Below are positions 14,937 through 48,541 of a stretch of 64,000 nt of DNA, piece after piece; position 1 is the stretch's first letter; each line of letters starts with the position of its first letter. Source of the DNA: Spartobacteria bacterium (GTDB taxonomy: Bacteria; Verrucomicrobiota; Verrucomicrobiia; Chthoniobacterales; UBA10450); contig PLCN01000020.1 of assembly GCA_003134785.1 (NCBI GenBank), forward strand, positions 349,864 through 413,863, written 5' to 3'. The notes beneath the pieces were generated by a model. It saw only the letters and a list, made by a program, of their open reading frames with translations, searched no databases and was not told the DNA's origin. The translations under genes were made by a program, and so were the position numbers.

Positions 14937-17900
14937 CTACGCCGGTTTCGGAGCGGCGCCCTGGGCGGTCAATTGCATCATTCCGATCTCGCCATTTCCA
15001 GCGAGCTGAACATTCGCAATGTCGAACACGGGCGCACCCTCGACCGCACTTGGGCCTGAGCCGGGCAATTGCACCGACACATTCTTCGACGTGGAATTCA
15101 GAACAATCGAAGCGATCTCAAACGATGGCGAGAACTCCACGGTCGCGATTTGGAACCGGCCCGTCACATGGACTGACGCTTGTCCCTGCTGCGACGGAGT
15201 GAGCTGGACCGCGCCGCTTTCCGCGCCGGACAAAAGTTGCAGACCCGCGATATTGAAAGCAGGCGAGCTGATTACGCTCGGGCGCTGCTGTTGCGATGGA
15301 GTCAGCCGGATCATGCCGAGCGAATTGCCCGCGAGCTGTACGGTGGCGATTTCGAAGGTGACTTGAAGATTCATCGCCGGCTGCGGCTGCTGCGAAGGAG
15401 CGAGACGCATGGTGACAATCTTCGAAGTCGGCTTCAGCTGCAGCGCGCCCATCTTGAAGCTCGGAGTAAGTTGCAGCGATGCGATCTCGAAAGAGAAAGT
15501 AAGTTGCACCGCGGTCTGCATTCCGCTGGCGGGTTGAGGCTGAGGTCCAGCCCCAGTCATTGGAGCAGTTCGGATTGCGGGAGCGGGTGTTGGTTGGATC
15601 GGTTGAGGCATGGTGGCTGGTGTTGTTGGCTGCTGAGCTAGGGGCTCGGTGGAAATAACTTGCGGCGCGAAAGAGGGAGACTCGACGGATTGCCGCAGAG
15701 CACCCACGCCCGCAATCGCGGCTCCTGCCACGACTCCTTCAGGGAGACGCGCGGGAGATTCCGGTTCGGGCTTGGTGATTTCGGCCATGGGTGAATCAAA
15801 CGCGGGAACTTGATAAGGGATGGGCTGGACTTGTGCAAATGGTTCTATTTCCGGTTCGGCCATTTGAGCGGCCCGCGCAACTACGGGTTCCTCGACGATT
15901 TCGGAAGGCGTCGTGATCGGTTCGGACACGGCTTCGAAAACCGCGGGAGCTTCGGCGATCACCGGCTCGCTCACGGCTTCCGCGGTGAGCGGTGCTTCGA
16001 AAATCCCTGGTTCTATAAATGCGGCAGGCGTTGCAAATGCGACTGGCGCTTCGGCCCAGACCGGTTCTTCCTGCGGCGCCGGCGCAACCTCTTCGAAACT
16101 CGGAACAGATTCTGTTTTGGCGACCGGAGCAAACTCCCACTCCGGAGCGGCAGCAGGTGTGGACGTCTTCGGAGCGATGACCGGTGTGACCTCCAGCTGC
16201 TTGGCAAATTCCGCCACCTTGGAAACGGGCGCGGGTGCAATGAACGGCTCAGGCGCGTGCGTCGGAGCGGTTTCTCGAGGAACAAAATTTTCGACTGCAA
16301 TTGTTCCGGCTCCCGCGATGGGCCGATTCATCTTGCTGAACGGAACGGCGGCGCGACGCACGGATGGTTCGGAAGCTCTCAGCTGCACCGACATCTGCGG
16401 AGGCCCTCCAACGATGCGGGACGGAGCGGCAATTTTCTCTGCTGTTTTCTCAGCCCGCGGCGCGCTCGCAACCGCATCGAAACGCGGTCCCATCGCCGGC
16501 GCGGCGCTGGGATAAACCGAAACACTCACGCGTCGCCGGACTTCGGAAATCACCACCCACGCCAGAATGACGATGCCAGCCAAAAGAAGAAGTCCGACGA
16601 GCAACGTGTTCGAGTTGGTCAAGCGAGCCATGCGCTCGCCGAACGTCGGCTCGGACCATTCCCGCACCGTCGCCGGCGCGAGGACGGTAGCCGGCGTCGT
16701 CCCGGTGATAGCGGGAACAACCTGGTTAGCGGCAGAGTTGGGCGGACTGGTCGGCGGACTTTGTTGCGCGACCGCAGCCGAGGTCGTCGGAACATTAGCA
16801 GAACTTTCTTGCGTGACTGACGTCGCCGGAACGTTTGGAGGACTCGATTGAGTCTGCGCGCTTTGCTCCGGCTCGCGCGGAAGCGGCGCGCGTGTTTCCG
16901 AAGGCAGTGCATTCGAGACCACCGGCGTTTCCACCTTCGGAGAAGAAAGAGGCGCGGGCTTTTGCGGCGCCGTTTCGTTCGGTTGCTTGGGCGCTTTGTT
17001 CAAGGCCAGGGCAGTCGAAGGAATTGGGCTCGGTTCGATCGCCGGCGTCGCTTCCACTTTCGCGACTTCCGTTGACGCCGTGGTGGGCGCGGCCGCGAGA
17101 TTTTGCAGCCAACCGAGATCGTAGAAAGAATCAGCGAAAACGAGATTCATCGCCGGCGAATAAATCTTCCGGGCGGAAACGATCCAGTCGTTGGCTTTGG
17201 CCGCGTTGTTATGTTTGAACTCCCACGCGGCTTGGGCGTAATAGAGCGCCGGTGTGTCCCCGGTGAATTGGAATTGTTCCATCATCTTCTGCGCGCGGCT
17301 GTCTTTCCCTTCCAGTAACAGCGTCAGAAAAACCTTGAATTTGATGATCTGCGACACCTGATTTTTGTCGCCGCCGGGTGCCGGCGTGGCGCTAAAGAGC
17401 GCTTCGAATCGGTCACGCGCCTTGCTGTAATCTTTTTTCTTAAACGGAATCTGCGCCAAATTGAACTGCGCTTCGTGGAAGTTCGGATCCAGTTTGATCG
17501 CCTGCTTGAACGCGTTTTCCGCGCCGTCGAAATCTTTTTGTGCCAGCAAAATTTCACCGCGCAGGTTGATGGTTCCAGCCTGGCCCGGGTTAGCCGCATC
17601 GGCCTCCTCGATCAATTTGCGAGCGGCGGTGAGATCGCGTTGCTGGAAAGCCTGCTCAGCCGCGTCGTACTTCTCTGTGGCGAGGGCTTTCGCTTTCGCC
17701 TGCCGATCCGCCGCGGTCGTCAGCTCCAGCGCCACGCGGTTTTGACCTGCCGGCTTCTGCATCCAACCCACTTCATAGAGCGATTCGGCGAAGAGTTTGT
17801 TCAGCGCCGGCGAAAAACTTTTCTCTGCTTTCGCCAGCCAGTCTTTCGACTCCTTGTCGTTCTTGCGCTGCAACGAAATGGCCGCGTTCGAGTAATAGGC

Positions 17901-18413
17901 CGCCGGCGTCTCAGGCGAAAGTTCGAACTTCGCGAGGATCGAATCCACCATGTTGTCCTTCCCTTGGAGGAGATAGGTCAGGAGGATCTTATATTGAATG
18001 AGCTGAGACGCTTCGCCTTGCAACTCCGCGGCATTCCCCTGGAGCAAACCTTCGAAGCGTTTCCGCGCTTCGGCCCAGTCTTTCTTCAAAAACGGAATCT
18101 CAGCCAGGTTGAAACGTGCGTTCCAGAATTTGGGATCAGTCGCGAGAGCTTTCTGAAGCGCGGCCTCGGCTTGATCGTACTCAGCCTGCCGCATCAAAAT
18201 GACGCCGCGCAGATTATGCGATTCGGCCAGATCGGGCTGGCGCGCATCGATCGCATCGAGCTCCTGCAACGCCTGCGGATAATTGTTAGCGTTGAATTCG
18301 CGGAAGGCCTTGTCGTACATCGACTCGAGCTCCGCTTTGGTGGGGGCGACATTTGTCGCCGCGAAAGAACTAAGAACCAGGACCGTGATCGTCGCGAATT
18401 TCCGAATATTCAT
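14937..18413 (-). CDS. Large TPR membrane protein with a C-terminal repeat domain
   Basis: From ATG 18413 the product has 1158 residues. The order is a signal peptide (MNIRKFATITVLVLSSFAATNV), then two homologous TPR blocks (about residues 25-250 and 275-470) that both contain FNLAxIPFxKKDxxxAxxRFExL. A Pro/Ser/Thr-rich spacer follows, then one transmembrane helix near 603-622 (LLVGLLLLAGIVILAWVVI), then a long Ala/Pro/Glu-rich stretch. From about residue 968 there are about 12 short repeats with the core F-x-I-A-x-[VL]-[QE]-L separated by TPSQQ-type turns. An upstream in-frame ATG at 18530 would add 39 basic residues and hide the signal peptide. The role is unknown; the layout suggests an envelope scaffold. 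Confidence 0.72.
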   Translation of the reverse strand: MNIRKFATITVLVLSSFAATNVAPTKAELESMYDKAFREFNANNYPQALQELDAIDARQPDLAESHNLRGVILMRQAEYDQAEAALQKALATDPKFWNARFNLAEIPFLKKDWAEARKRFEGLLQGNAAELQGEASQLIQYKILLTYLLQGKDNMVDSILAKFELSPETPAAYYSNAAISLQRKNDKESKDWLAKAEKSFSPALNKLFAESLYEVGWMQKPAGQNRVALELTTAADRQAKAKALATEKYDAAEQAFQQRDLTAARKLIEEADAANPGQAGTINLRGEILLAQKDFDGAENAFKQAIKLDPNFHEAQFNLAQIPFKKKDYSKARDRFEALFSATPAPGGDKNQVSQIIKFKVFLTLLLEGKDSRAQKMMEQFQFTGDTPALYYAQAAWEFKHNNAAKANDWIVSARKIYSPAMNLVFADSFYDLGWLQNLAAAPTTASTEVAKVEATPAIEPSPIPSTALALNKAPKQPNETAPQKPAPLSSPKVETPVVSNALPSETRAPLPREPEQSAQTQSSPPNVPATSVTQESSANVPTTSAAVAQQSPPTSPPNSAANQVVPAITGTTPATVLAPATVREWSEPTFGERMARLTNSNTLLVGLLLLAGIVILAWVVISEVRRRVSVSVYPSAAPAMGPRFDAVASAPRAEKTAEKIAAPSRIVGGPPQMSVQLRASEPSVRRAAVPFSKMNRPIAGAGTIAVENFVPRETAPTHAPEPFIAPAPVSKVAEFAKQLEVTPVIAPKTSTPAAAPEWEFAPVAKTESVPSFEEVAPAPQEEPVWAEAPVAFATPAAFIEPGIFEAPLTAEAVSEPVIAEAPAVFEAVSEPITTPSEIVEEPVVARAAQMAEPEIEPFAQVQPIPYQVPAFDSPMAEITKPEPESPARLPEGVVAGAAIAGVGALRQSVESPSFAPQVISTEPLAQQPTTPATMPQPIQPTPAPAIRTAPMTGAGPQPQPASGMQTAVQLTFSFEIASLQLTPSFKMGALQLKPTSKIVTMRLAPSQQPQPAMNLQVTFEIATVQLAGNSLGMIRLTPSQQQRPSVISSPAFNIAGLQLLSGAESGAVQLTPSQQGQASVHVTGRFQIATVEFSPSFEIASIVLNSTSKNVSVQLPGSGPSAVEGAPVFDIANVQLAGNGEIGMMQLTAQGAAPKPA

Positions 18414-47357: not shown

Positions 47358-47810
47358 TCAAGCCCGGCCGAAGCGCCGGTTCGCGGGATCCAGCGCGGGG
47401 AAAATTCGCGTAAGGTAATAAGTGAGCGGGGTTTGCCCAGCCAGAACCTTCCGTTTCGATTTCAACTGGCCCTGCACCACCCCGAGTTTTGTGAAAACGC
47501 CGTTCCACTCCGATTCCAGCCGCCGCACTTCGTCGTTCGATAATTCGCGCACGCCTCGCACAGACACGCAACGCTGGAGCACGTTCATCGCGCGCCCCGA
47601 AAGCTCCGCGAGAATGCCGAGTTCGCCGAAAACATGTTCGGTCTCCTGCAATAAATTCGCGCGTATCTCCGTAAACTGACGCTCCCGTTCCGCCGAGATC
47701 ATCGGCTTGGTCTTGTCGAGACCGTACGTGATCACGTCATGGAGTTTTTTCCAATTATCCAGCTGCAACGTCAGCAGCCTCAAATGAGTTTCGACGACTT
47801 TGTCTCTCAT
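47358..47810 (-). CDS. Helical hypothetical protein coupled to the PATAN protein
   Basis: The 150-residue protein is predicted to be mostly helical with heptad-like segments (VETHLRLLTLQLDNWKKLHDVI, LLQETEHVFGELGILAEL). Its C-terminus is LTYYLTRIFPALDPANRRFGRA. There is no signal peptide or catalytic motif. Its start overlaps the stop of the PATAN gene by 4 bp, so the two are translated together and probably act together. I cannot name the family. Confidence 0.68.
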   Translation of the reverse strand: MRDKVVETHLRLLTLQLDNWKKLHDVITYGLDKTKPMISAERERQFTEIRANLLQETEHVFGELGILAELSGRAMNVLQRCVSVRGVRELSNDEVRRLESEWNGVFTKLGVVQGQLKSKRKVLAGQTPLTYYLTRIFPALDPANRRFGRA

Positions 47811-48541
47811 GCGGGCCCCGTCGCTGAAAGTTCAAGGGTCTCATCGAGCTTCTGCAAATTGTCGATCAGGAGATGCGCCCAGGGACGATCCACGCTCTGG
47901 ACTTGGCTGATGATTCCTTCTTCAAAATAAAACCGGCCCTGGCGCCAGCGGAAAATTTCCGCGACGGCGGACTCTCCCTCCAGCGATCCGAAGACGGCAT
48001 GCCGCACCGAACCGTGAGCGAGGTAAATCTCACTGTTGCCCCGGCCCGACTTGAAAGTGAACCGGCCGCTGCGCTGCCCGAGGCAGCTCATTTGCAAAAT
48101 CTCCGCGGCGGAAAATTGATTGAGATTTCCGATGAGGGAATGACACGGATCGATGCCCTCGGCGGGTATGCCGCATTGACCGAGCGAACGCACAAACGAA
48201 TTCAATTGCCGGCGCAAGGTTCGCTCGCTGCCGTTCGTCGCAATTCGCGTGATCTTTTGCTGCTCCGCCGTTTGGACAAAATCCGTGTCGTGCGGCGCCG
48301 GCGCGAGCAAGATGATGTTCAACGATGGGAAATGCTGCCGCGCGTTGGTCGCCTGCTCGAGGGCAACGGGGGTTTCGCCTTCCACGACAAATCCGTCAAA
48401 ATTTTCGGCCAGCAGGATGGAGACGGCCTCCGGCAGCCTTCGCACGACCCGCAGCTCGACGTCGTCGATCTCGTCGAAAATGCCAAGCGCACGGTCCTGA
48501 AAGACCGGATCAGCGTTCAGAATAAGGAGCCTGGTTTCCAC
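47807..48541 (-). CDS. PATAN (DUF4388) domain protein with a degenerate receiver-like N-terminus
   Basis: Residues 1-115 resemble a CheY-like fold (LLILNADPVFQDRALGIFDE, DGFVVEGE, LNIILLAP) but lack the acidic pocket and a clear phospho-acceptor Asp. Residues about 130-240 are a PATAN/DUF4388 module: LIGNLNQFSAAEILQMSCLGQRSGRFTFKSG and EIYLAHGSVRHAVFGSLEGESAVAEIFRWRQGRFYFEEG. PATAN domains occur in PatA-like and gliding- or development-related regulators and mediate protein contacts. Together with the coupled helical protein it looks like a phosphorylation-independent adaptor. Confidence 0.8.
   Translation of the reverse strand: METRLLILNADPVFQDRALGIFDEIDDVELRVVRRLPEAVSILLAENFDGFVVEGETPVALEQATNARQHFPSLNIILLAPAPHDTDFVQTAEQQKITRIATNGSERTLRRQLNSFVRSLGQCGIPAEGIDPCHSLIGNLNQFSAAEILQMSCLGQRSGRFTFKSGRGNSEIYLAHGSVRHAVFGSLEGESAVAEIFRWRQGRFYFEEGIISQVQSVDRPWAHLLIDNLQKLDETLELSATGPA

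Follow-up and report, generated by a model that had tools for sequence, protein, structure and literature searches.

A predicted all-beta domain with an internal repeat at the C-terminus of a TPR membrane protein in Chthoniobacterales

Introduction

Polar hub proteins of the FimV/HubP type possess one transmembrane helix, a periplasmic LysM domain and a long, poorly conserved cytoplasmic tail, which comprises TPR repeats and ends in a small conserved domain. A link of FimV with FimL and PilG has been reported (PMC10519157). A second group of related systems is formed by the cyanobacterial PATAN (DUF4388) response regulators, like PixE, PixG, and LsiR (PMC7690835), and such cyanobacterial regulators bind PilB, the motor of the type IV pilus (PMC10519157).

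The protein described here is encoded in a stretch of 64,000 nucleotides from a Spartobacteria bacterium (contig PLCN01000020.1, positions 349,864 to 413,863), which was analyzed as a whole and is called the window in the following. The window's bacterial family includes Candidatus Udaeobacter, which is known for its abundance in soils. In a literature search by title or abstract nothing was found on the C-terminal domain of this protein, and the literature yielded no paper on Udaeobacter together with TPR or on DUF4388 together with a response regulator.

Results

Architecture of the Host Protein

The gene is located on the minus strand of the window (14937..18413) and encodes 1158 amino acids. 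An ATG (MNIRKF...) was chosen as the probable start because of the signal-peptide-like sequence that follows it, and signal sequences of a similar kind begin separate TPR homologues in relatives. The putative N-terminal signal peptide (MNIRKFATITVLVLSSFAATNVA, 18333..18413, minus strand) was read from the sequence. It precedes two TPR modules, both recognized by Pfam TPR families and 40% identical to each other over 199 amino acids. The first one is located at 17724..18359 on the minus strand, its first residues overlapping the signal peptide in these boundaries, and the second one at 17010..17723 on the same strand. The N-terminal half scored above the Pfam gathering scores of TPR_19 (62.2 bits against 25) and TPR_1 (55.2 bits against 27.8).

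A hydropathy scan identified a single transmembrane helix (LLVGLLLLAGIVILAWVVI, 16548..16604, minus strand) with a hydropathy of 3.09 over 19 residues, followed by SEVRRR. Downstream of it lies a hypervariable linker of about 340 residues (15522..16547, minus strand), which is rich in Ala, Pro, and Glu, contains 107 Ala/Pro among 300 residues and shows low column conservation among 30 relatives. The protein ends in a conserved all-beta domain of 194 amino acids (residues 965-1158; 14940..15521, minus strand). One transmembrane helix and several hundred Ala/Pro/Glu-rich residues between the twin TPR part and the C-terminal domain had already been noted in a preliminary description of this DNA, and this layout was recovered here. 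Since a signal peptide and TPR modules come before a transmembrane helix with RRR on its C-terminal side, the C-terminus, and with it the all-beta domain, is predicted to lie in the cytoplasm. The linker would then be cytoplasmic as well and the TPR modules periplasmic.

Conservation and Distribution of the C-Terminal Domain

With the last 194 residues as query, the domain was found at identities of 90-93% within the genus and of 55-85% in the family as a whole. Among 30 relatives this end of the protein is conserved, whereas the linkers hardly align, and the complete open frames of the family that carry it are mostly 1070-1450 amino acids long. With dN/dS values of 0.025-0.11, and of about 0.05 against the nearest relatives, the domain is under strong purifying selection.

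As to the taxonomic distribution, raised as a question in the preliminary description, the domain occurs in 65 of 67 genomes within the window's family and, in the same order, in 6 genomes of a single sister family. Searches with wider profiles covered 335 genomes of the class and 387 genomes of the phylum, two samples which overlap in part, and detected the domain in no others, and no relative of it was found on viral contigs or plasmids. The named records with the domain belong to metagenome-assembled genomes of Spartobacteria, Chthoniobacterales, and Candidatus Udaeobacter, as well as to one contig labelled Acidobacteria. This contig (L077, 3.1 kb, Acidobacteria gp1 AA140) contains the domain and an M29 neighbour as in Verrucomicrobia and is probably mis-binned.

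Two genomes of genus g5 in the window's family possess additional copies of the domain. At one locus (L115, 5168 onward), a 216-amino-acid open frame ending in the domain lies directly after the TPR form. A partly masked contig (L116) carries two copies of the domain on opposite strands as well as a fragment.

The protein and 18 diverse sequences of the domain were scanned with Pfam, NCBIfam, and PHROGs without a consistent match to the domain, the few weak matches striking one member each, and two profiles searched against the PDB sequences gave no match to it either. This agrees with the earlier statement that no named domain with such a repeat was known, and the domain family is absent from the searched libraries. 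Epsilon-toxin appeared at chance level (E 0.2-0.3) with one of the PDB search profiles and disappeared with the more diverse one.

Gene Neighbourhood and Split Forms

In the window's family the gene order is fixed and reads LptD - Ugd - RsmB - M29 peptidase - TPR-domain gene - CoaX - GpmI, the names of the neighbours being assigned by sequence resemblance. In the sister family the domain is carried by a protein with transmembrane helix and linker, but without TPR. Three of its genomes (G055, G063, and G077) have a separate neighbouring TPR gene, whose product is homologous to the window protein's TPR half (about 34-36% identity over about 195 amino acids). The TPR half and the half with transmembrane helix, linker, and domain are one gene in the window's family and neighbouring genes in the sister family, and this pair of fused and split forms argues that the two halves work together.

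At one locus (L108:1-636), a second TPR protein has its C-terminus upstream of the TM-linker-domain gene and shares a LFAESFYxxGWL-type motif with the window's twin TPR modules. In this genome, the TM-linker-domain gene thus appears to be surrounded by two separate TPR genes.

In two genera of the sister family (G055/G077 and G063), the gene pair is located directly beside genes for a BBP2_2 barrel, a Poly_export/SLBB protein and a Wzc-like protein, which are followed by polysaccharide deacetylase and glycosyltransferase-like genes. This neighbourhood suggests which machine may be involved. The protein could even belong specifically to a machine that synthesizes or exports polysaccharide, in which the periplasmic TPR part would work with the export channel and the beta-domain, at the cytoplasmic face, with a Wzc-like kinase or a synthase. 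The best NCBIfam match of the TPR part, PrsT of the XrtA/PEP-CTERM system (TIGR02917), would fit such a role, but its 99.3 bits are below the cut-off of 312.2, as expected for generic TPRs. Moreover, neither the surroundings of the gene in the window nor the flanks of 67 loci of the family contained a polysaccharide-export locus, and the same applies to L110 and L113 of the sister family, where a TPR gene of doubtful kinship adjoins. In the window's genome a single Poly_export gene was found, which is located on a different contig. A dedicated polysaccharide role for the protein is therefore considered unlikely.

Internal Duplication and Predicted Structure

The motif F-x-[IVM]-A-x-[VLI] occurs six times in the domain, at domain residues 11, 56, 89, 123, 134, and 166, against 0.04 expected occurrences and a maximum of 2 in 5000 shuffles, so that the C-terminal repeats first noted on this TPR membrane protein are real. 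The alignment of the two halves reached a Smith-Waterman score of 125, whereas the highest score was 52 among 2000 plain shuffles and 68 among another 2000 which keep the hydrophobic pattern. The profile comparison with hhalign gave 38% identity between domain residues 2-76 and 114-187 and an E-value of 2e-11, which is a single-comparison value from few effective sequences. Chance repetition or low-complexity drift as the origin of the pattern is ruled out by the shuffles together with the dN/dS values.

The two beta-modules delimited in this comparison, module 1 (residues 2-76; 15294..15518, minus strand) and module 2 (residues 114-187; 14961..15182, minus strand), are separated by a stretch with one extra hairpin (residues 77-112; 15186..15293, minus strand). 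Each module of about 75 residues consists of five strands, which form a three-strand meander and a hairpin. The domain thus originated from a 75-residue unit that was duplicated. With a profile built on one module (A4), two copies were identified in most proteins of the family and one in G039 (L113), where the protein ends in a natural single-module form of 85 residues.

AlphaFold2, supplied with 60 relatives, predicted a compact all-beta model (pLDDT 83.6, pTM 0.81). Predicted disorder or a confident match to an existing family would have refuted the preliminary description, and neither was found. DSSP assigned to the model 11 strands of at least 3 residues, or 12 with the long first strand split into two, and the half module modelled alone reached a pLDDT of 79.5 and a pTM of 0.56. 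The preliminary description had counted about 12 short repeats and proposed a beta-solenoid or beta-roll. An all-beta model on the scale of 12 strands agrees with that number, but these are two five-strand modules plus a hairpin and not 12 equal repeats. In the same way, a distinct folded all-beta repeat domain is borne out, whereas an open solenoid or roll is not supported in view of the two-fold duplication, the single-module form and the lack of a solenoid among the listed fold matches, all of which are weak.

Foldseek gave no match with E < 0.001, neither for the full domain against the PDB and viral predicted structures nor for the half module against the PDB. With VIA-align, the best Z-scores were 4.0 and 3.7, and PilZ-type proteins, a FliM/FliN SpoA fusion, and split-barrel flavin proteins were among the matches, which are unreliable at such Z. 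A weak fold match does not demonstrate a new fold.

The weak matches are headed by chains of the PilZ/YcgR type, namely VCA0042 (Z 4.0, 82 aligned, rmsd 4.5) and the PilZ region of BcsA (Z 3.7, 63 aligned, rmsd 3.4), which would be compatible with each module being a divergent PilZ-like beta-barrel and with the domain sensing a nucleotide such as c-di-GMP. However, Z-scores below 5 are level with those of unrelated folds, none of 18 members matched the Pfam PilZ family at E-values of up to 10, and the ligand motif RxxxR followed by [DN]xSxxG is absent from all 78 alignment rows and from 30 longer C-termini. This PilZ-like reading is quite improbable.

A Cytosolic Response-Regulator Paralogue

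The domain was also found at the end of a paralogue (L106:6405-8510) with the architecture REC - DUF4388/PATAN - REC - linker - domain, DUF4388 being the name under which Pfam lists the PATAN domain. The paralogue scored above the gathering scores of Response_reg (82.2 bits against 30.2) and DUF4388 (41.8 bits against 25), and its C-terminal domain is 26% identical to that of the window protein. It is present in most genomes of the family, where it occupies a conserved position next to genes for MacB-type permeases, and usually purB too, across genera. The expected phosphorylation residues of its second receiver are kept in most copies examined. The paralogue (L106, L117-L131) evolves much faster, with 58-65% identity within the genus compared to at least 90% for the domain of the TPR form, and a tight mutual interface with the regulator is therefore not evident. 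Genus g5 has mostly the TPR form alone, so the domain does not depend on the regulator there.

The window itself contains a second DUF4388/PATAN protein at 47807-48541 on the minus strand, with a small ORF beside it at 47358-47810. Its DUF4388 match (G000:C24:397703-397993) has 69 bits and is the best of six in the genome.

Receiver domains are cytosolic by nature, and the two of the paralogue argue for a cytoplasmic C-terminal domain in the TPR form. This placement would thus rest on two independent lines, the topology of the host protein and the receiver domains of the paralogue. A location outside the cytoplasm, as a surface adhesin or wall-binding beta-repeat, would fit the polysaccharide neighbours in the sister family and an Ala/Pro-rich linker with a beta-repeat, which is a common surface architecture, but it is the least probable reading, as signal peptide, TPR, and transmembrane helix with RRR predict a cytoplasmic tail and the paralogue bears the domain on a protein with two cytosolic receiver domains.

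Discussion

The C-terminal domain is unnamed and lineage-specific, and it is set in a known kind of context, an envelope scaffold and a response regulator. Since it is near-universal in the family and strongly selected, these bacteria likely rely on its function. Single-module, duplicated, fused, and unfused forms all survive in living relatives, which makes it a clean case of domain birth. It may well be a cytoplasmic two-module beta-domain for protein interaction, i.e., for docking or assembly. Residues that look catalytic were, in our reading of the domain alignments, not recognized, and together with the missing PilZ ligand motif and the long Ala/Pro-rich linkers, which attach the domain to two kinds of proteins, this pattern points to docking or assembly.

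In the proposed mechanism, whose topology, docking function, partner identity, and surface-polysaccharide link we infer, the host protein would be an envelope-spanning scaffold with a cleaved signal peptide, periplasmic twin TPR modules, and one transmembrane helix. A disordered cytoplasmic tether would follow this helix and carry the beta-domain at its end, which would tie the periplasmic TPR scaffold to intracellular signalling. As a cytosolic response-regulator protein also terminates in this domain, the signalling output probably reaches the envelope machinery via the domain or a common partner. By analogy, the PATAN regulators which act on the type IV pilus motor offer a precedent for regulators working on envelope machines. 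If the docking reading is true, the domain provides a handle on envelope regulation in hard-to-grow bacteria.

A wider interpretation, which is rather doubtful, would see in it a new fold family, which originated within one bacterial order when a 75-residue beta-module was duplicated and which serves as a docking domain common to an envelope-spanning TPR scaffold and PATAN-type response regulators, with a coupling of signalling to the envelope that has not been described before. If true, this coupling would occur in bacteria that are among the most abundant in soil.

Compared to the known systems, the likeness to beta-barrels of the PilZ/YcgR type is a weak resemblance in fold, whereas the sequence match and the ligand motif are absent in the domain. 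PrsT (TIGR02917) shares the TPR repeats and, in some genomes of the sister family, a polysaccharide-associated neighbourhood, but the match is far below the cut-off and concerns the TPR part alone. The paralogue has the combination of REC and DUF4388 in common with the cyanobacterial PATAN regulators. It differs from them by an additional REC, a linker, and the unnamed beta-domain, and the link to PilB is one of the cyanobacterial regulators.

Neither LysM nor FimV was found in the window protein with Pfam and NCBIfam, and its TPR is N-terminal, before the transmembrane helix. The window protein thus differs from FimV by a predicted periplasmic TPR part and an all-beta end domain, whereas in FimV the LysM is periplasmic and the TPR cytoplasmic. 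It resembles the FimV/HubP type in that one transmembrane helix joins a periplasmic part to a variable cytoplasmic tail with a conserved end, and probably also in a functional link to response regulators.
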